From NCBI GenBank assembly GCA_949358305.1, contig OX442316.1, positions 14,324,001 to 14,384,000 of the forward strand: DNA of 60,000 bases, given 5' to 3'. Source of the stretch: Strigamia acuminata. Its lineage: Eukaryota > Arthropoda > Chilopoda > Geophilomorpha > Linotaeniidae. A model generated the notes under the pieces. That model was not told the origin of the DNA. It did not search any database and saw nothing but the letters and a program-made list of their open reading frames with translations. Each line of letters starts with the position of its first letter. Position 1 is the first letter of the stretch. Positions 523 through 11,857 of the stretch are shown here, piece by piece. The translations under genes were made by a program, and so were the position numbers.

Positions 523-1090
523 TGTCACGTGTACGAACCGTGCCAATTAATGCGCGATTCGTAACACGTAATTCGATCCATTATTAGTTAAATGTTGCTA
601 AATTTCGGCAACAGATGGCGCGGGCGATTGGAAACCGTCATCGTCGTCTGTTGGACCGATCAATTAGATTAAGGGTAGAATAGGAGATTTTCTATGAACT
701 AACCCACTCCAAGACAGCTCACTTAACCTTATGTTGCTTTGCAGGAAACATCAATTAAAATCACTAGCCTAATGTCGCCCAATAAACAAAGGGTACGGCT
801 GACGGCTATCTTCTGTATTTATGAGTTACACAATTTATCACCCAGTTGTTAAAGTGTTTATTTAATTGTAGTGAATTTAAGTGATGTAAATGCCATTTCA
901 TTCAAAGTAATAATGTTTAATTATTCGATTTGTAAAGCGCACATTTAAAGAAGGTCGAACAGACTTTGTCTGTCCGGTCTAATAAAGACTAGATTTGAAT
1001 TTGAACATAAACACGCCTCATTCATTCCCCTCACTCATTTAATAACAGTCACGTGGACCTCGGTCAGAAAGGGCCAGAATCCACGTAACA
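523..1090 (+). repeat. 5' LTR
   Basis: 568 bp, starting TGTCACGTG and ending CGTAACA. It is aligned by eye along its length with 10402-10969, with a single mismatch seen at 691. An AATAAA polyadenylation signal lies at 981-986. Immediately upstream, ACAGAC (959-964) and GTCTGT (968-973) can form a small hairpin. I did not find a clear TATA box, so the promoter/U3-R border is not assigned. Confidence 0.95.
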
Positions 1091-1092
1091 AA

Positions 1093-1107
1093 TGGTGGAG
1101 ATGCGAG
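1093..1107 (+). other. Primer-binding site, tRNA-Ala type
   Basis: Two bases after the LTR, TGGTGGAGATGCG complements the 3' end of cytosolic tRNA-Ala (acceptor strand CAUCUCC, discriminator A, CCA), including the base facing the U of the G3:U70 identity pair. The match runs 13 bases, then weakens. The tRNA sequence is from memory of eukaryotic tRNA-Ala and was not searched against this genome. Confidence 0.7.
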
Positions 1108-1430
1108 TCTTTCCCACACCGTATAAAAATTGGAATAAAATTTGTGAAAATTAGCGAAAATTCTGAAATTAGGCTTAGTTTAGCTTGGATTTGCCTAGTG
1201 TTTGGTTTTTCAGGAAATTGGAAAATTAAAATTGGAAAATTAAAGCAATTAGAATTGAAATTTGTGAAAAAATTGGTTTGAAAATCATATAAAATTTTGA
1301 AAAACTGTAACTTAATTTGCATACGGATGACTCATTGATAAGAGTGATAGAAATGAAAAAGGTGACTCATTGCTAATGAAGATAATAGACTTAATTAGGT
1401 TTAAAATTGGCAAAATTAAGAAATAATATA

Positions 1431-2192
1431 CAGGGTGGAACAAAAGTCTGTTCCCCTCAAATATTTCCTCAGCAATTGCATCTAGGCCAACTTTGATGAA
1501 GCAATCGTATAGGAAGTTGGGTGAGAGCAATCCAATGATGTCATCAAATTTGACCTTGACGGCCATTTTCAAGGATATTCACTTGCTAACTTTTAAACCA
1601 ATCAGGTTAGAGCAAAAAAGTCAATTACAAAGTTGTAGAGCATCATCAAATTAGTACTATCCAACTTATCTTAGTCATCTTAAGTTAAATGTTTTCCTTT
1701 TCAAAAGGAGACAAATCAGAAAAAAATCAGCAAAGTGAAATTTTTTATTCTTGTGATAAAATAATTATTAGGGCATTAAAAAAAGGCAGTGGTTGTTCTT
1801 GTTTACTTGCATAATGATACACATTTGAATATGTTTATTTAAGTAATTCAGTATTTTTGTGATAGAAATTTAAGTTTTGTCACAATGGCTGGCTTTATTT
1901 CAGCTGATTTGTCTTCTTTTTAAAAGGAAAACATTTAACTTAAGATGACTAAGATAAGTTGGATAGTACTAATTTGATGATGCTCTACAACTTTGTAATT
2001 GACTTTTTTGCTCTAACCTGATTGGTTTAGAAGTTAGCAAGTGAATAACCTTGAAAATGGCCTTCAAGGTCAAATTTGATGACATCATTGGATTGCTCTC
2101 ACCCAACTTCCTATACGATCGCTTCATCAAAGTTGGCCTAGATGCAATTGCTCAGGAAATATTTGAGGGGAACAGACTTTTGTTCCACCCTG
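1431..2192. mobile_element. Non-autonomous DNA transposon (MITE) inside the LTR element leader
   Basis: Terminal inverted repeats of about 288 bp start CAGGGTGGAACAAAAGTCTG and end with the complement. A TA lies on each side (1429-1430, 2193-2194), as expected for Tc1/mariner-type insertion. The arms (1431-1718, 1905-2192) are nearly identical; the central 190 bp is AT-rich with no transposase ORF. It lies between the primer-binding site and gag, lengthening the 5' leader by 762 bp. Short ORFs within it are products of the palindrome. Confidence 0.85.
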
Positions 2193-2486
2193 TATAGTTT
2201 GAATTTATTAATGAATTTTTGAATTTCAGGATATTTTTGTAATTGTTTACTAATAAAAAGTTTTCTTGAATATTTACTACTAATAAATTTAATAAAGTTT
2301 TGAAATATGACCGTGAAAATTTAATTGTTTTGAAATTTTGAAATTTGATTGTGAAAATTGAATTGTTTAAATTGTTTAATCATTGACTTATTTTCAGAGA
2401 GTAAAAGTGTTATAGTGTTATTTGCAATTGAATAAATTGATTCTGAGTGCTTCAAAGGATTGTGTCTTCAGTTTAACTAATTAATC

Positions 2487-3947
2487 ATTGCGGAATCCAA
2501 ACGCTATAAACTGCCAGAGTTTGTAGCAGACTATTTGTTTTCAACAAAAGAACCAGGAGAACTTGATCCATTGGATGATAAAGTAAGTGATCGGAGGAAG
2601 AGATCAAAATCCAAAAGTGAACAAAAAACACAAAAAAGGGAAGATCTCGAAACCCCCGACCAGCGTTATAAAAGACTAATTCATCCAGAACTTTATGAAG
2701 GATTGACCCCAGATGAAGTAAATTTATTGGGAAATTTCTTGGACGAAAGGTTAGAAATATTGGACGACGCATTTGAGGACGCAGCCCAAGAGATTGAGGA
2801 CTCAAAGGAACTAATTCAATCGAAAGTGATAATTAAAAGTGAACAATCTTCTAGTGCAATGGCTAATGCTTCACCATCACCAGAATTTGTAGCGATACAA
2901 ACGGTATTACAAAATTTAGTGGTAAATAGAAGAAATCCAGTTGATTTTGATCCGGCTACAGGAAATATTGACACGTGGTTGATCGGATATGAAGATACGA
3001 TCGCCGATGATACTGAACGTATTAAACATCTGTCAATTGTGCTGAAATCTTCCACATCATCATGGTACTTAGATCAACTTCCACTGCATCCGACTAGAAC
3101 ATGGACACAATGGAAAGATGCGTTGAAGACTAAATTTAGACGACAAATAACAACAATTCTGTTGAAATTACAGGCAATGCAGCACAAGGATGGAACAGCT
3201 TTGGAACACATGCAGAAGATACTGAAAGAATGTTCTTTTGCAAGACCGTCGTTCACTGAAGAGCAAAAGATATTTCATGTGTTTCAGACACTTAAAAAGG
3301 CGACTAGAGATAGATTGGTTGTCAATTTTCCAAAGACATTGGATCAACTGACATCTCAACTTGGATTATTGGAAGCTCATGCATTCAGTGAGGACCCTGC
3401 AGAAGTTTTACTAACCCTACTGCAAAAAGCTGTTGATACACCTAGTGAGGTGACACCGAGTTGCTTGGTAGAACCGAGCAACATCAATAAAACAAAAGAC
3501 GAGTTGTTAGCAGAGGTCAAAGTGCTAAGACAACAGCAGCAGTTTGGGGGTGTTCAATATGCAGAGGTTACTCCAGTTTTCTATCAAAACCAATGGTATA
3601 CACCACATCCAAACCAGGCGCAGTTCTATAATAGAGGTAACTTTAGAGGACGACCTGGACAACAACGAGGATGGTGGAATAATAACAAAGATCAAAACAG
3701 AGGTAATTGGAATAATCAGTGGAATAATCCAGGTCAAGGATTCCAACAGCAATATCCACAACAGCAATGGAATCCGCCACAACAGCAAAGGAACCCACCA
3801 CAAGGTCAAAGACAACAGGGGAATCCAAATAACCAAGGTCATCCTAAAAATCCGAATTATAAAGGTAAAAATTTTATTGAAAATTACCAAGGCCGAGGAA
3901 ATCGAGGAGCCCCACGTGGTGGACCACCTAATGCATCGAGAAACTAG
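2487..3947 (+). CDS. Gag polyprotein of the LTR element
   Basis: The frame is open from 2481 to the TAG at 3945-3947, about 485 codons. The central part matches the Ty3/gypsy capsid (retrotransposon gag) fold signature, with residues such as TWTQWKDALKTKF near 3105-3140. The C-terminal 120 residues are rich in Gln, Asn, Gly and Arg with RGG-like repeats. They contain no CCHC zinc knuckle, so RNA binding is probably through the Arg/Gly-rich tail. No in-frame ATG precedes 2860: the likely start region has ATT at 2487 in a context suited to initiation, and the next candidate is TTG at 2535. Either this copy lost its start or the family uses a non-AUG codon. Pol follows in the -1 frame. Confidence 0.85.
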   Translation: MAESKRYKLPEFVADYLFSTKEPGELDPLDDKVSDRRKRSKSKSEQKTQKREDLETPDQRYKRLIHPELYEGLTPDEVNLLGNFLDERLEILDDAFEDAAQEIEDSKELIQSKVIIKSEQSSSAMANASPSPEFVAIQTVLQNLVVNRRNPVDFDPATGNIDTWLIGYEDTIADDTERIKHLSIVLKSSTSSWYLDQLPLHPTRTWTQWKDALKTKFRRQITTILLKLQAMQHKDGTALEHMQKILKECSFARPSFTEEQKIFHVFQTLKKATRDRLVVNFPKTLDQLTSQLGLLEAHAFSEDPAEVLLTLLQKAVDTPSEVTPSCLVEPSNINKTKDELLAEVKVLRQQQQFGGVQYAEVTPVFYQNQWYTPHPNQAQFYNRGNFRGRPGQQRGWWNNNKDQNRGNWNNQWNNPGQGFQQQYPQQQWNPPQQQRNPPQGQRQQGNPNNQGHPKNPNYKGKNFIENYQGRGNRGAPRGGPPNASRN

Positions 3948-6900
3948 AATGGCCACAAAGACGAAATAACAAAAAGAAAAGAAGAAAAAGGAAGTTAGAA
4001 ATCATTGAGTTGAATGCCACAGATGACCTTTTGCAAATTCCAGTAGTGGTGAATGGTATGGAGATAACAGGTGTCTTGGATTCTGGAGGTTATCGTAATA
4101 TTATTAATGAAGATTTGGTAAGAACATTGCAGCTTAAATACCAGCCATGTCCACATATTTGACTTAGAGTTGTGGACGGATCGATAATACTTCCAGAAGG
4201 AAAAACCAAAATTACTATTGACGTTGGACAACAGCAACACACCATTGAAGTGCTGATCGTCAACGGATTTGGCCACCATTTACTGCTGGGACACAGCTTT
4301 TTGACATCTGCTAGGTGTAAACTTGACTATGACCAACAGAAGATCTTTGTAGGCCCAAAAGATGAACAACAAGAAATTTTCCCAATGTCTAAAAATCATA
4401 CTGATCAAAATTACATAGCTCGAGTTTTGAAACCTATTACTATACCAGCTTTACATGAATGTGTAGTACCAATAAAAATTGCAAAGAAAATAGATGATGA
4501 ATTATTTATTGAACCACTTAGCGGAGTAGTAGATCGATTTGGAGTGATTTGCTGTAAAACATTGACCAAATTCAGAAAAGGTGAAGGAGTTCTGCGTGTT
4601 GCGAATCCGACTAAAAAGACAATTTATTTAGGACGTAACTCAGCAATTGCAAAAGCATTTTATGTAATTGAGTCTGGCGTGCTTGATGAAAAAGGAGATA
4701 ATCATTTTGACTTTAGCACGGCCATGGCAAATGATAATATGACGCCATCACAACAAGAGCTAATGGTGCAATTGCTAGAGAAAAATTCTGATAGATTTGC
4801 AAAAACTGACAATGATTTAGGCAGAGCTCACACGATTAAACATCGAATTGATACTGGAGATTCTCCTCCAATTCATTTACAACCTTATAGACGATCAATT
4901 AAGGAGAAAGAAATCGAGGATGCCGAAACAAAGAAGTTACTTGACCAGGGAGTCATTAGAGAATCTGAGAGCCCATGGAGTGCACCAGTACTACTCGTCA
5001 AGAAAAGAGACGGCAAATGGAGATTTTGCGTTGATTGGAGACGGTTAAACGCAGTAACAAAGAAAATGGTTTATCCCTTACCGCGTATTGACGACACCCT
5101 AGATCAATTAGCGGGTGCGAAGTATTTTTCGATGATGGATCTCATTCAGGGATACCACCAAGTCGAAATAGACGAACAAGATCGTGAAAAGACAGCGTTC
5201 ACCACGTCTAGCGGACATTATGAGTTTAATGTCCTCGGAATGGGATTATGTAACAGTCCAGCCGCCTTTCAAAAATTGATGAATAAAGTACTTGGTAATC
5301 TCTTGGGAAAAGTATGTATTGCATATCTTGATGATTTGATAGTGTTTTCAAAGACTTTCGACCAGCATCTTGTCGATTTGGAGGCAGTTTTCCAAAAGCT
5401 TAGAACAGCGAATCTCAAAGTCAAGCTGAGCAAATGTACGTTTGCGACACACACCATACGATACCTCGGACATGTGGTTGATGCTGAAGGTATTTCACCG
5501 GATCCCAGGAATTTGGATTCAGTAGCTAAGTTTCCGGTTCCTGTGAACGTTAAACAACTACGTGGTTTTCTTGGATTATGTTCGTATTACCGGAAATTTA
5601 TTAAAGGTTTTGCGGATATTTCCAAACCTCTGGTGAATTTAACCAAAAAGGATGAAAAGTTTGACTGGGGGCCGCCCCACGATAAAGCATTCCACACGCT
5701 CCGAACAGCATTAGTAACAGTGCCGGTGTTAGCGCATCCAAATTTCGCTCAGCCCTTCATGATATCAACTGATGCAAGTGCCTACAGCTTAGGAGCAATT
5801 CTAAAACAAAAAGTCAACAATCAAGAGCGTATCATCGCTTATGCAAGTCGTTTAATGAGCACAGCTGAACAGAATTACACTGCAACTGATAGAGAAATGT
5901 TAGCAATCATTTTTGCTATTGAGAAGTTCAGACCGTACTTATATGGACAGAAATTCCAGATAATTACTGACCATTCTGCCCTTCAATGGCTGAAAGGAGT
6001 CCGAAATCCAAATGGACGTCTAGCCAGGTGGGCGCTGCAATTAGCTGAGTATGATTTTGAAATATTTCATAAAAGCGGCAAGAAACATACAGATGCCGAT
6101 GCTTTAAGTAGGATCCAGGAAGAGTTAAGTGAAGAAGAAATCAAAAAATTGCCTTCGCTTTTCTTAGAAAATTTGGACCTCCCTGTTGAGCAGAGGAAGG
6201 ATCCCAAACTTCTGGACCTCATAACAGCGCTAGAAATCCAAGAGCAACTTCCAAGAAAGAGAAGACGGCCGCTGAAGCAGTTCGTACTTCAAAATAAAAC
6301 GTTGTTCAGGAAGAAAAAACTTAACAGTTCCCTGAACATGGAAGATTTATTACTAGTAGTTCCAAAACAACTTCAAAAAGATGTATTGTATGAAATGCAC
6401 GATGGATTACTAGGAGCTCATTTGGGATTGGCAAAAACGTGGAAACGAATAAGAACACGATTCTTCTGGACAAGAATTTACAAAGATGTTAGAAATTATG
6501 TCTTGTCTTGCCAACACTGCGCGAAAGCAAAAACAATGACAACGCCAGCTAAAGGATTAATGCAGCCATGGTCAACAGTTTCAAAGCCTTTTGAACGAAT
6601 TGGAATAGATACACTTGGACCATTTCCATTATCACGTCTTGGAAATAAACATGTTTTTGTTGTAACTGATTATCTTTCGAGATCTGCAATAGCTAGACCA
6701 GCAGCAGCAGCTACAGCTTTAGAAGCAGCGAAAACTTTGCTGTACGAAGTGATTCTGAAAGAAGGCAGCCCAAGAGAAATTTTAAGCGACCGTGGAACGG
6801 AATACAGGAACAAAATGGTTGAGGAAGTCTCAAATATGTTTAAAAGTTTGCATAAAACTACGTCAGGATATCATCCAAGAACAAACGGATTAACTGAGAG

Positions 6901-7744
6901 ATTTAATGCGACATTCGCAAAAATGTTGCAAAGTTACGTTAATGATGAACACACTGATTGGGATGAGTTTCTTCCATTTCTTCTGTTTTCATATAACACG
7001 GGAGTTCATGAAACAACAGGCTATACACCACACTATCTTTTACGAGGATATGACGTGGATTTGACAGTAGATGTAAATCTTGATTTGCCACAGAAAGAAT
7101 TTACTTTAAGGACAGCGAAATTTATTCGAGCAGCCAGGAAAATTGCAAATGAAAGATTAGAAAAACAATCTGCAAAAAGCAAGAAAAGGTTTGATGAAGA
7201 TAGAGTCAACAAAGAGTTTGAACCAGGTGAATTGGTTTATTTGAAAACCATCAACAGAAAAGTTGGCTTGTCAGAGAAGCTTTTACCGCAATTTTCCGGC
7301 CCATACGAAATTGTGCGAAGAACAGCACCGAATGATTACGAAATAATCAATTCAACAAGAAAGAAGAGTGATATAGTGAATGTAGAAAGACTAAAATCGT
7401 ATAAAGAACGAGTTGAACCAGAAATAGACAAAGTTTTGAAAGATTTACCAGAAAAGAAAGTGAAATTTGCTGATAAAGTAAAGAAAATCAGTAAAAAAGG
7501 AGAAATTGTAGTAGAAAACATCGAAAAACCAGTTAAAAAGATGAAAATCAAACCAAGGGAACGTTACATAGACGATACAGAACAAATCTCGTTAAAATCG
7601 CTATTTGAACCACAGCCTTTAATAGGAACTAATGAAAAACAACTTAAAAATCCGCCACAAGATGGCGCAAATACACAAAAAGACGATTTCCGGTCGCGCA
7701 GACTCAGACCGCAGAAACGAAAAGACTATCGTCATTGCTATTGA
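3932..7744 (+). CDS. Pol polyprotein (PR-RT-RNaseH-IN), interrupted by a TGA
   Basis: The pol frame opens at 3932, overlaps the end of gag by 16 nt in the -1 frame and runs to 7744, except for one TGA at 4160-4162. Order of domains: aspartic protease with the DSG core at 4079-4087; reverse transcriptase with YLDD at 5324-5335; RNase H (TDAS near 5770, DREM near 5890, TDHSALQW near 5968); integrase with an HHCC zinc region near 6399-6520 and catalytic Asp 6608, Asp 6788 and Glu 6896 (35 residues between the last two); and a C-terminal GPY-type module near 7230-7350. The premature stop falls after the protease active site and before RT, in place of one residue. Expression is expected by -1 frameshifting; I saw no textbook slippery heptamer in the overlap. 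This copy probably makes no full Pol unless the TGA is read through. Confidence 0.95.
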
Positions 7745-8664
7745 TTTTGCTACGGTGAACACGAACTCATAGTGTGACCCGGAAACAATTTCTTTTTTGT
7801 CTATTTATTTATATTTTGTGTATGATATTGTGTTTCAAAAGGTTTGTATGAATGATATTGATAATTTTAAGTGACTTTAGAGATGAATTTTGAGGTTTTA
7901 AACGTTTTTTTTGAGCGATTTTCGTAAAGTGAAACTAATCGCCATGTTCGTTCATTCGTGTTAGAATTTTAGTTAGGTGAAAATATTTTAAAAATTGAAA
8001 TTTTAAATAATTAGGAGTTAAATTTAATGACATATTAGTGTGAAATAAAATGATTTTAAAGTGTAAATAAGAGGTAATGAAAGTGCGAATGGCGGGGACG
8101 CGAAAGGACCCAGCGCGATCTTCGTTCATCTGCATTGAATTTTAATTAGGCTTAACAATTTAGGTAAAATTTTGAAATTATGAAATATTGAATTTAATAA
8201 CATAGTAGAGTAAATTAAAAATAAATTTCAAAGAGGAATTGAAAATTTAGTTCTAACAGCACGAATGATTCGAGACGCGATAAGGAAATTCATTGCGAAC
8301 TTTGTTAAAATCGAATAAGTTTGATAAATGTAAATATTTTTCGATGGAAATTTGATTGAATTTTGATAAGAATAATTTATTGTAAATAAGTAAAATGGAA
8401 TAAGTTGATGTTTATTTTTGAAAATATAAATGATTTTTTTTTAAAGAAAACTTGAAAAATGAAAGAAAAAATTTAATTAATTTGAAATTCTTTTAGAAAT
8501 AATTGAGTGTTTGAAGTTTACTATGGAATATTTATTTGCAATAGGAACAATTTTATTTATTAGGCATAATATAGTTGATATTATTTAATCTCATTTTGTC
8601 TTATTTTCTTCATAAGTAGGTTGGAATCGTTTAGTGCTTAGTGATAAGTGCGAAGGACCATCAA
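7745..8664 (+). repeat. AT-rich spacer between pol and ORF3 with degenerate direct repeat
   Basis: About 920 bp with no ORF. Two imperfect copies, spaced roughly 170-180 bp, can be read at about 7945-8120 and 8120-8300. Shared landmarks are CGTTCAT plus a GAATTTTA-TTAGG block (7949, 8124), TTTAAT.ACATA.TAG (8025, 8192) and CGA.TG......GACGCGA (8085, 8265). The 3' end has a strong T-rich tract (8590-8610) followed by AG at 8615-8616 and 8618-8619, a good candidate 3' splice site about 46-49 nt before the ORF3 ATG. Confidence 0.55.
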
Positions 8665-10107
8665 ATGGAAAGTATGGCAAGCAAATTCGACAGGATAGAC
8701 ATCCATTCGAGCTCGGACGAGAGCGACGAGTTCGAAATACCAGAATACGAACCAACCGAACCAATTGAAGTTGAGCCGATTGAACCAACTGAAGAGTCAA
8801 CGGACTTAAATGATGCGATGCCTGACCAAGCTGAAGTGGAGATCGACCCGATGGCCATGTGGAACTGGTACGATAGGAGCATAGACCTGAATAATCCAAC
8901 AGCGGGTACCAGCAAAACGGTTAAATTGGAAGACATAGTCCAGTTTGAACGCCCATTTACCGATAGACGTAAGAAAGGTCACAACCAGCCACCAAAGATG
9001 CTAGATCCAAACGACCCGAAGTTCATTAAAAGAAAGAATCGTCAGGAGCGGCGTAAGCGTAACAGAACCTTGCGTCGTAAAACGGAAGGTATTGAGAAGA
9101 AGAAACTGACGCCAAAGGGTTTGAGAATTATTCGAGAGCAATCTCAGCGAGCGGTGAGGAGAAATTTCCGTCGTTTGCTGGAGATTAACGTTGAACGGAG
9201 AAATCTAGCGGCGGCGGTTATTCCTCTTCAACCGAAGGGCGCGGAAGGACGACCGATCTTTCAAGCTTATAAGCAGGAGGCGCAGGTATTGATCCTGGAA
9301 GAAGCGAAGATTCGTAATAAAGTGGATCGCGCGAAGGAATTAGGGAAGAGAACAGCGCTCTATGATCCGCGAATTAATTTACCGTTACCACCAGTGGATT
9401 ACGAAGTTAAGATCCCTGCGGATAAAGCGATGGAAGCCCTAGGGAAATGGCGGGAATATTTTCAACATCACCCAGATGAACCAATGTATGTGTCGGAAGT
9501 GCGACCACATATCGCAGTCGGCCCCAGAGAGATGATCGCTTTAGGAGCATTAATGCCAGGCCGAATATCTTGGGTTCACGACACGGTGGTCGATTATTAT
9601 TTGGGTATGTTGATGAAGCGTTATCCTATAGTTTATGCATTTCCAGTGGCAACCGTGGCGAAACTGATGAAAGGCGATGATAAGCCCAATACATGGCGTT
9701 GGGTTCGCGACCAAGTGGACCAACCAAAAAAGGAGCACAAGATCTGGTTCTTCCCCATACCGGCGGAAGAACACTGGATCATATACGTGTTCGATATGGA
9801 GCGTTCTCCGCCGTGTGTGGGGTTCTACGACTCGTCGGGGAAGCCACACTTAGATCATTTCAAGTGGTGGAATAACATCAAACTCAACTTGAGAGGTTCT
9901 GGATACGAGCTACCGAGTTACGAGACGTGGGAACCTCCAAAAGCAGCCCAGCTCGATGGGGATAGCTGCGGGCCTATGATTTTGCACTTTGCTCGTAGAT
10001 ATTTGGAGTGCCGAGACCTGATGAAGTTAGCGGAAGGCTCGGAATTGCGAGTTCGAATCCTGTACGAGATCCAGCACGGAAAATTCGAACCCTTTGAAGA
10101 AATTTAA
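8665..10107 (+). CDS. Third ORF of the LTR element: Ulp1/SENP-like (C48) cysteine protease
   Basis: 480 codons from the first ATG (8665); the frame is open slightly upstream but only with GTG. Residues about 10-55 are acidic, rich in Glu, Pro and Asp. Residues about 110-190 are strongly basic (Arg/Lys clusters resembling nuclear or nucleolar signals). The C-terminal part holds a C48 active site in the right order and spacing: His370 in EEHW, Asp389 in FYDSS, Gln429, and Cys435 in DGDSCGP (codons at 9772, 9829, 9949, 9967). In Ulp1/SENP enzymes this triad plus oxyanion Gln cleaves SUMO precursors or conjugates; this substrate is inferred. The ORF lies in the element's sense strand between pol and the 3' LTR, where errantiviruses have env. 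There is no signal peptide or membrane helix. It looks richer in G+C than the surrounding spacer. The frame is undamaged although pol has a stop. Confidence 0.85.
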   Translation: MESMASKFDRIDIHSSSDESDEFEIPEYEPTEPIEVEPIEPTEESTDLNDAMPDQAEVEIDPMAMWNWYDRSIDLNNPTAGTSKTVKLEDIVQFERPFTDRRKKGHNQPPKMLDPNDPKFIKRKNRQERRKRNRTLRRKTEGIEKKKLTPKGLRIIREQSQRAVRRNFRRLLEINVERRNLAAAVIPLQPKGAEGRPIFQAYKQEAQVLILEEAKIRNKVDRAKELGKRTALYDPRINLPLPPVDYEVKIPADKAMEALGKWREYFQHHPDEPMYVSEVRPHIAVGPREMIALGALMPGRISWVHDTVVDYYLGMLMKRYPIVYAFPVATVAKLMKGDDKPNTWRWVRDQVDQPKKEHKIWFFPIPAEEHWIIYVFDMERSPPCVGFYDSSGKPHLDHFKWWNNIKLNLRGSGYELPSYETWEPPKAAQLDGDSCGPMILHFARRYLECRDLMKLAEGSELRVRILYEIQHGKFEPFEEI

Positions 10108-10390
10108 GTTTGATTTTGTTTTGAGTTATTTGAGTTTTTGTACTTTTTCATTTCATTTCAAAAAACATGTAAAATAAAACATAGAAATACAAAAGACCTG
10201 TATAAATTAAACTAAAAGGGAGTACATGTAAAAATTGTGAAATTTTCTTTTGATTTTGAGATATAATTGTAAAACAGCTGAGTGATAACTTGTATAAAAA
10301 AAAAAGCAACCGAACATTCCTTAAGAATGTCCGACTATAAAAGAGACCTGTCTGGACCGAAATTTGTATTTTGGGGTCCAAAACACGGCA

Positions 10391-10401
10391 AAAAAGGGAG
10401 T
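10391..10401 (+). other. Polypurine tract
   Basis: The purine run AAAAAGGGAG directly precedes the 3' LTR and is the expected plus-strand primer for reverse transcription. An A-rich stretch extends it to the left (10389 onward). Confidence 0.85.
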
Positions 10402-10969
10402 TGTCACGTGTACGAACCGTGCCAATTAATGCGCGATTCGTAACACGTAATTCGATCCATTATTAGTTAAATGTTGCTAAATTTCGGCAACAGATGGCGC
10501 GGGCGATTGGAAACCGTCATCGTCGTCTGTTGGACCGATCAATTAGATTAAGGGTAGAATAGGAGATTTCCTATGAACTAACCCACTCCAAGACAGCTCA
10601 CTTAACCTTATGTTGCTTTGCAGGAAACATCAATTAAAATCACTAGCCTAATGTCGCCCAATAAACAAAGGGTACGGCTGACGGCTATCTTCTGTATTTA
10701 TGAGTTACACAATTTATCACCCAGTTGTTAAAGTGTTTATTTAATTGTAGTGAATTTAAGTGATGTAAATGCCATTTCATTCAAAGTAATAATGTTTAAT
10801 TATTCGATTTGTAAAGCGCACATTTAAAGAAGGTCGAACAGACTTTGTCTGTCCGGTCTAATAAAGACTAGATTTGAATTTGAACATAAACACGCCTCAT
10901 TCATTCCCCTCACTCATTTAATAACAGTCACGTGGACCTCGGTCAGAAAGGGCCAGAATCCACGTAACA
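10402..10969 (+). repeat. 3' LTR
   Basis: 568 bp, the same as the 5' LTR except C at 10570 for T at 691. AATAAA lies at 10860-10865. It is followed by the ATAT target duplication (10970-10973) and the continuation of the interrupted host repeat. Confidence 0.95.
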
Positions 10970-11270
10970 ATATTGAAAGGGTCGCCGCTCGAAACCTAAG
11001 AGGGCTGCAGTGTTGTCCTTTACAGGGTTTGTAGAGAAGACATTCCTCTATTATTTGGTCCTTAAAAGGAAAAAATCCGTGGTCAGGTTGTTGAGATATT
11101 GGGGTGTGAAGTTGTGGCACCAGATTCGGAAATTTAGGACAAGTCTTTTTTGCGCCATAATATTGAAACGGTTGCTGCTCGAAAACCAAGAGGGCTAGAG
11201 AGTTGTGCTTTTCAGGGTTTATTAAGGAGAAAGTCCTCTATCTTTTGGTGTAAAAATCATTGAAATCCGT
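10970..11270. repeat. Tandem repeat: rest of unit 2 and unit 3 (right of LTR element)
   Basis: The host repeat resumes at ATATTGAAAGGGTCGCC and a further unit begins near 11107 with GAAGTTGTGGCACCAGATTC. With the LTR element removed, the spacing from the previous unit is about 182 bp. Unit 3 has GCGCCATAATATTG where the insertion target in unit 2 had GCGCCATATTG. The repeat fades by about 11270. Confidence 0.65.
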
Positions 11271-11317
11271 GTAAAAAAAATTGGGATTTGTTCTATCTGT
11301 AGTTTGGGCGAATGTGA

Positions 11318-11857
11318 ATGTGGTGCCAACTTCAGCCTCGTGTCAACATGCACCTTCAAGTGAATCTCCTGGCGGCAGGGCCCTCAACTGGAAACATGTC
11401 CCTAAAGGAGCCTTCCCCGTCGCGACGACCTCCCAGCTCACGGACAAATGCAAGAAACAACACAGGTAAATCACTTTCCCCCTGATTGCAAAAGGACACA
11501 GCGTGGTGAGGGTTGTTCCTCTTGGGCTGAAACAGTTGTCAATGAGTGATAAAGAATTAGCCTGGTTTTTCCTGCACTTGCCGGAATCTAATTCTAATGC
11601 CTAGCCTTAAATTTAATCAGGACAATTTTTTTTAATTCCCCAGTACTATTGGAGAAGAATGTTGGTGTACGTGGATTTGAATTGCATGCTATTCGGGACA
11701 CACAAGGAAATAAAATTAGCAAACATTTTCATTTGGATGTAAGTAAACGATAAAAATGTTTGACAAAACTTGTGGCAACAATTTTCAAGAAATAAAACAT
11801 TAAAAAAAATAATAATTCATGTGTTTAGTCATGTTTTAGTTTGTGCATCGACGCTGA
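11318..11857 (+). CDS. Small spliced gene, not recognised
   Basis: Three exons can be joined in frame: 11318-11465 (alternative ATGs at 11318, 11348 and 11396), 11644-11738 and 11840-11857 (TGA). The borders are ACAG/GTAAAT, CCCCAG/TAC, GGAT/GTAAGT and TTTTAG/TTT. The product would be about 60-86 residues. The start is Ser/Pro/Arg-rich (LKEPSPSRRPPSSR), followed by a conserved-looking segment containing GVRGFELHAIRD. An AATAAA lies near 12119. The second exon reads like real protein and both splice sites are strong, but I know no family that fits, and the last exon is weak. It may be a longer gene with a missed exon. Confidence 0.4.

Follow-up and report, generated by a model that had tools for sequence, protein, structure and literature searches.

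Domains of the Ulp1 type recur in DNA transposons, in Cryptons and in some non-LTR elements. The Ginger1 DNA transposons combine a gypsy-type integrase and a Ulp1 protease in one mobile element, which is bounded by terminal inverted repeats and whose transposase has the protease at its C-terminus, and other C48-carrying mobile elements are the Mutator/MULE DNA transposons with ULP domains (both described in part of PMC2836005). The Cryptons with C48, which are tyrosine-recombinase elements, represent an independent Ulp1-like association (part of PMC3212892). In the NeSL/Utopia retrotransposons, which are non-LTR elements, the Ulp1-like domain lies at the N-terminus of the element protein (sections of PMC4640811). 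The bdelloid LTR-retrotransposons possess an enzymatic ORF3 after pol, shared between retroelements, in which the enzyme is a GDSL esterase or a DEDDy exonuclease (sections of PMC5408684). Insect endogenous retroviruses, or errantiviruses, also have a third ORF after pol, expressed from a spliced transcript, and their Env shows a signal peptide, a furin site and a transmembrane domain (portions of PMC12992720). An earlier note on the present DNA had described a Ulp1/SENP-like protease ORF in a Ty3/gypsy retrotransposon, and had held that a publication of the same gypsy lineage would speak against it. No such publication, and no Ty3/gypsy element in which C48 forms a gene of its own, was found in the literature searched, including that on LTR-element Ulp1 (Repbase reports and most subscription journals aside); the sections consulted of PMC6338049, PMC7264820 and PMC8127270 held no LTR-element Ulp1 in Ty3/gypsy.

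The window, a stretch of 60,000 nucleotides of the Strigamia acuminata genome (G000:C4:14324001-14384000), contains a Ty3/gypsy element at positions 523–10969, oriented on the forward strand. The element is delimited by two LTRs of 568 bp with TG...CA ends (523–1090 and 10402–10969), which differ by one mismatch (691/10570), and is flanked by the short target-site duplication ATAT on the left (519–522) and on the right (10970–10973). A purine-rich (polypurine) tract (10390–10400) ends one base 5′ of the 3′ LTR. The gag frame (2481–3947, first ATG at 2859) gave a weak Ty3_capsid match below cut-off. In pol (4163–7744), Pfam showed the Ty3/gypsy order of RT, RNase H and integrase, the latter with H2C2, core and a p58/SH3-type C-terminus; the rve core reached 30.8 bits, just under the cut-off of 32.6. 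A DSG-type aspartic protease motif was recognised by eye in the frame upstream of the stop that interrupts pol. An A+T-rich, C-poor spacer of 920 bp (7745–8664) separates pol from ORF3, and diverged direct repeats with a spacing of about 170 bp were visible inside it (7964–8220). The surroundings of the element (1–520 and 10970–11318) are repetitive, with inverted repeats as well as a 159-bp unit in near-tandem copies. Scanning the window for tRNAs and Rfam families gave no match.

The in-frame TGA that breaks pol in its protease region (4160–4162) and a foldback (inverted-repeat) insert of about 0.8 kb in the 5′ leader (1414–2209, arms of 306 nt, 96% complementary) indicate that the window copy is damaged. 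The sequence of its 5′ LTR is also present elsewhere in the same genome. Five more window-type LTR pairs of the same subfamily surround an open ORF3 and span 9.87–9.91 kb, compared to 10.45 kb in the window copy, and a sixth surrounds a broken ORF3 (40 of 350 candidates scored in the search with the window LTR). Judged from spacing only, the foldback insert is probably specific to the window copy. The window copy is thus not intact, its gag frame having no ATG before 2859 either. Of the 3219 pol relatives, 120 were listed; the named ones among these were mostly chelicerate, at 34–52% identity, and two were plant entries. Nothing ORF3-like was seen among these 120, and a search of viral contigs with pol gave no relative. 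The nearest RT relatives were P0002 and P0006 in a compared set without a named errantivirus sequence.

ORF3 (8665–10107, forward strand) is located between pol and the 3′ LTR, in agreement with the placement first given. Its frame is open from 8635, begins with the ATG at 8665, ends with the stop codon at 10105–10107 and codes for a 480-aa protease of the Ulp1/SENP type (C48) with acidic and basic N-terminal regions. The 490 open codons observed, against a maximum of 187 in 1000 single-base shuffles of 8635–10107 (three frames, one strand), exclude a chance origin of the frame. The succession of acidic and highly basic regions previously reported was recovered in the net charges of −12 (residues 1–40), −9 (41–80) and +14 (121–160). 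The Lys/Arg-rich region suggests that the protein would enter the nucleus. ORF3 showed no membrane segment (maximum 19-residue hydropathy of 1.03, three Cys, one N-glycosylation motif), and the envelope gene reading was dropped on this ground. The membrane anchor and glycosylation of an errantivirus env were not recognised in it, and an affinity to errantiviruses is not supported.

A pyrimidine tract followed by TAG (8598–8619) resembles a 3′ splice site by consensus match. The TAG at 8619 lies 45 nt before the ORF3 start, and this interval is free of ATG. In the examples taken from all nine clusters of copies defined below, an AG followed a more or less pyrimidine-rich stretch (pyrimidine share 0.56–0.94) at 5–48 nt before the ATG, with a strict automatic splice-acceptor criterion retaining only 22 of 54 copies. 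From the location of such sequences just before the start, ORF3 would be made from a spliced subgenomic RNA.

The search of the genome (237.5 Mb, 157 contigs) with ORF3 gave at least 90 rows at E <=0.001, 75 of them free of internal stops, counting partial rows. As scores were obtained for only 89 of the 391 candidates, 90 is a lower bound, and the case of a one-off captured host fragment, which the earlier note had envisaged as a refutation, does not apply. We fetched 83 of the 89 non-window rows, in 80 loci, together with 20 loci showing C48 matches, three of which (L092, L095 and L096) belong to the ORF3 family. Matching frames of 120 aa or more were present in 82 loci, of which 54 were full-length by a set criterion, and the window brought the number of full-length copies to 55. 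At 85% identity these copies grouped into nine clusters, and the cluster representatives are 30–71% identical to one another. In an alignment of 20 rows, Met4, Lys7 and Phe8 were nearly or wholly invariant, and so were several positions in the basic stretch. A pol of the same lineage was located upstream in 16 of the 20 loci fetched with flanks; only the pol end was present in L008, and no pol was seen in L012–L015. L095 possesses an open ORF3 and just two parts of pol.

Several side observations were made during these searches. The ORF3 relatives L012, L034, L013–L015, L037 and L038 include some without a nearby pol and some without the catalytic His (absent from L012 and from L013, which is outside the 55, and retained in L015). 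Sequence 3′ of a cluster 4 ORF3 recurs on either side of several ORF3s of this cluster (40 of 1572 candidates scored). Contig G000:C13, which at 10.3 Mb constitutes 4.4% of the genome, held 30 of the 90 ORF3 rows for 3.9 expected, some of these rows being pieces of one copy. This contig behaves as a strong sink for the element and is perhaps a heterochromatic or sex-limited chromosome. The same genome also contains MULE-type frames with C48 (L085 and L093, which also have PHD, and L094 without PHD) and C48 plus PHD frames (L088 and L098), and some C48 frames exist in several identically scoring copies.

Taken alone, the window ORF3 matched Pfam C48 with an E-value of 0.11 and 12.7 bits, under the cut-off of 20.7. 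Against the PDB sequences, the full ORF3 matched SENP2 (9.6e-5), SENP1 (1.5e-4) and Ulp1 (2e-3), and the values improved with the protease domain alone (residues 285–480, positions 9517–10104) to 2.1e-5, 2.2e-5 and 4.8e-4, respectively. With the reversed domain as a control, the best PDB match was 0.37, none was of clan CE or SENP-like, and Pfam gave none. A profile of 20 copies matched SENP1 (8.7e-11), SENP5 (8.1e-8), SENP2 (3.1e-6), Ulp1 (6.1e-5) and SENP3 (1.9e-4). In Pfam, C48 was the leading family, with 15 of the 20 profile members at E <=1 and a best value of 1.2e-4, and L095 reached 22.5 bits, above the cut-off. In the genome scan for C48, the frames of L092, L095 and L096, three diverged copies, also exceeded the Pfam cut-off, with 25.2, 23.9 and 22.5. 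The C48 identity proposed at first reading was in this way borne out, and the clan CE search that had been recommended gave a significant match with the 20-copy profile. None of the remaining 17 C48 loci retrieved from the genome exceeded 14.0 bits with the ORF3 profile, compared to 44.2 for SENP1. A derivation of ORF3 from another C48 gene of this genome is unsupported, the best of the stop-to-stop pieces compared being L086, at these 14.0 bits. Single-sequence structure models had a mean pLDDT of 39.7 and 35.5, and Foldseek returned no significant match with them. Searches of limited sensitivity found no ORF3 relative in protein databases, by phage tblastn, in viral contigs or in GTDB contigs, nor in NCBIfam and PHROGs, where one irrelevant weak NCBIfam match was obtained.

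The predicted catalytic residues His370 (9772–9777 with the adjacent Trp371), Asp389 (9829–9831) and Cys435 (9967–9969, the nucleophile) and the predicted oxyanion residue Gln429 (9949–9951) align in the same order with those of the SENPs. The set noted earlier is complete, and the spacing between Gln429 and Cys435 is six. Asp, Gln and Cys were found in 55 of 55 full-length copies and His in 53, both copies without it belonging to cluster 2. Trp303 (9571–9573), aligned with the Trp of SENP1 WLND, and Trp371 were equally present in all 55. The C-terminal catalytic domain, the order and spacing of these residues and the aligned WxxD and HW motifs are features shared with SENP1, SENP2, SENP5 and yeast Ulp1. 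Trp303 and Trp371 align with SENP Trp residues that presumably line the channel for the SUMO Gly-Gly tail. This channel is described in a review (part of PMC8123143).

In Pfam, the isolated window domain matched the poxvirus processing peptidase C57 (0.014) slightly better than C48 (0.034), both below cut-off; we take the two families to be members of clan CE. The weak C57 match is in line with a protease that cuts structural proteins after di-glycine, comparable to ASFV pS273R, or that processes them in the manner of the adenovirus protease. Such an activity is known for viral SENP-like proteases, and the adenovirus enzyme, with its SENP-like structure, processes viral proteins and is devoid of deSUMOylating activity (part of PMC5513362). 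We consider this role unlikely for ORF3, since all matches of the 20-copy profile at E <=0.04 were SENP, Ulp1 or XopD, with adenain absent, and since the DSG-type motif seen by eye could do the processing of the polyprotein.

Within clusters, the dN/dS values of ORF3 calculated by the Nei-Gojobori method were 0.07 (45 pairs), 0.12 (28), 0.06 (66), 0.14 (10), 0.07 (91) and 0.15 (1). Cluster 2, a degenerate cluster of two copies with a value of 0.88 (one pair), showed relaxed constraint along with the loss of the catalytic His. For the parts of pol fetched, the values were 0.07 within subfamily A (21 pairs), 0.09 within subfamily B (6 pairs), and 0.07 and 0.11 in clusters 4 and 5 (one pair each). 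The comparison of ORF3 with pol that the earlier note had suggested (0.06–0.15, cluster 2 excepted, versus 0.07–0.11) therefore shows a protease constrained about as much as pol, although these values are descriptions rather than tests, because the sequence pairs share ancestry and are non-independent. The selection that had been deduced from a single open frame in a young copy, which is no evidence by itself, is seen instead across the copies. Between deep clusters, ORF3 evolves faster than pol, with a dN of 0.715 (one representative pair, clusters 0/4) compared to 0.209 for pol (mean of 14 pairs).

The codon usage of ORF3 differs from that of the rest of the element. Its GC3 is 0.517, against 0.307 for gag and 0.321 for pol (Fisher p 3.5e-15 for gag plus pol), and is similar to the value of 0.545 pooled over seven presumed host exon frames chosen by eye (p 0.30); a GC island covers 8649–10078. 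Recent host capture of ORF3 was first suggested by this codon usage. It was dropped as the high GC3 is common to all nine clusters (0.46–0.53, with 0.29–0.41 for pol), which indicates that the contrast is old. The third positions of pol are A-rich, and the contrast with ORF3 is a lasting one inside one family (for gag, in the window only). The resemblance to host exons would also suit a passenger, either a captured fragment devoid of function or a piece of a nested DNA transposon. We judge this highly improbable: the GC3 is high in every cluster, the dN/dS of 0.06–0.15 argues against neutrality in six of the seven clusters that contain more than one copy, and no convincing terminal inverted repeats were found around ORF3, for which reason a nested DNA transposon was rejected. 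The passenger reading is refuted for the main clusters and possible for cluster 2. That ORF3 is a C48 gene belonging to the element and under selection is nearly certain.

Subfamilies A and B are sisters in the ORF3 tree (support 1.0, midpoint-rooted). Their pol sequences differ by a dS of 0.365 and a dN of 0.027 (28 pairs), whereas in ORF3 the synonymous sites are saturated (pS 0.83) and the dN is 0.289 (one pair). Along window positions 6163–10969, the identity to three B copies was 0.84–0.97 up to the pol end and 0.56–0.76 beyond it, with the exception of the segment 10363–10562 (0.87–0.89). A similar pol followed by strongly diverged 3′ modules is poorly explained by one shared history and well explained by recombination or gene conversion near the pol end. 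The sequences strongly suggest that pol and the ORF3 module were separated by recombination at least once. This pattern bears on the possibility that ORF3 deSUMOylates the Gag or integrase of the element itself, tuning particle assembly, nuclear entry or the integration site. The evidence for the identity of the enzyme would apply equally to such targets, and the stable linkage to one lineage, with pol upstream in 16 of 20 loci, would be in keeping with them. Two strongly diverged ORF3 types behind closely similar pol genes seem, however, not to require a tight fit to their own pol, and we hold this possibility to be doubtful.

Three sequenced copies, L101, L102 and L103, are without ORF3. L101 and L102 correspond to A-type LTR pairs 8.5 kb apart, in which the spacer is retained along with the last 147 bp of ORF3 in L101 and about 30 bp in L102. 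These remnants indicate a secondary loss of ORF3. The deletion differs between the two copies, and inspection by eye showed short stretches of shared sequence at the junctions. Copies lacking ORF3, which had been listed as an argument against the gene, hence do exist, but two of the three once possessed it. In L103, ORF3 is wholly missing, and the 722 bp covering the pol end and spacer are 98.5% identical to a cluster 4 copy. Five further cluster 4-type LTR pairs, known from spacing only, have the L103 spacing (7.3–7.7 kb between LTR starts for this type) and no ORF3 row. It seems that an ORF3-less derivative of cluster 4 multiplied, and as ORF3-less copies seem to multiply, the ORF3 protein probably acts in trans. 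ORF3 may be supplied in trans or be dispensable at times. A window-type LTR pair of 9.7 kb at G000:C8:7707033-7716730 also lacked an ORF3 row in the search that scored 89 of 391 candidates.

We propose that the ORF3 protein, once produced, would free host proteins of SUMO or of another modifier ending in di-glycine. The element would most likely benefit through a weakening of its SUMO-dependent transcriptional silencing, and the protein, probably trans-acting, would serve the ORF3-less copies as well. In Drosophila, Piwi-guided silencing requires SUMOylation (part of PMC8733420), which makes silencing factors plausible targets of ORF3. In yeast, the Nup84 complex keeps Ty1 transcription in check by anchoring Ulp1 at the pores (part of PMC8585004). 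Taken as an analogy, the yeast data are opposite in sign to a simple model in which deSUMOylation helps the element. The anti-silencing deSUMOylation role, as read from the sequence, falls a little short of an even chance. The whole statement, in which ORF3 is a real, long-established accessory gene for a protease of the SENP1/2/5 type, trans-acting and most likely weakening SUMO-dependent silencing, is in our estimate evenly poised between right and wrong. More tentatively, an LTR lineage may encode its own deSUMOylating counter-defence, consisting of a nuclear protease under pol-like constraint, carried in a recombining 3′ module and shared in trans with ORF3-less derivatives. If true, SUMO-dependent transposon silencing would here have an inhibitor encoded by a retroelement. 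ORF3 also bears on whether SUMO-based host silencing meets element-encoded resistance. The protease is here a gene of its own, its copies are numerous and differ in age, its dN/dS is like that of pol, and one genome contains natural copies with and without ORF3; this makes the benefit of a SUMO protease to a mobile element directly testable.

The carrier of ORF3 differs from Ginger1 in its LTRs and RT and in an ORF3 that is separate from pol, from the MULEs in not being a DNA transposon, from the Cryptons in not being a tyrosine-recombinase element, and from NeSL/Utopia in being an LTR element. The position after pol is that of the errantivirus third ORF and of the bdelloid ORF3s. Compared to errantivirus Env, ORF3 has no membrane segment. 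The bdelloid ORF3s showed no significant departure from neutrality (sections of PMC5408684), whereas the ORF3 of the window family is under strong purifying selection. With regard to SENP and Ulp1, the predicted protease is distinguished by its location in an LTR retrotransposon, by its own N-terminal regions and by WVHD in place of the SENP1 WLND. Mobile elements with a Ulp1 protease are a known kind, as are LTR elements whose ORF3 is enzymatic; what is new here is their combination under such constraint.
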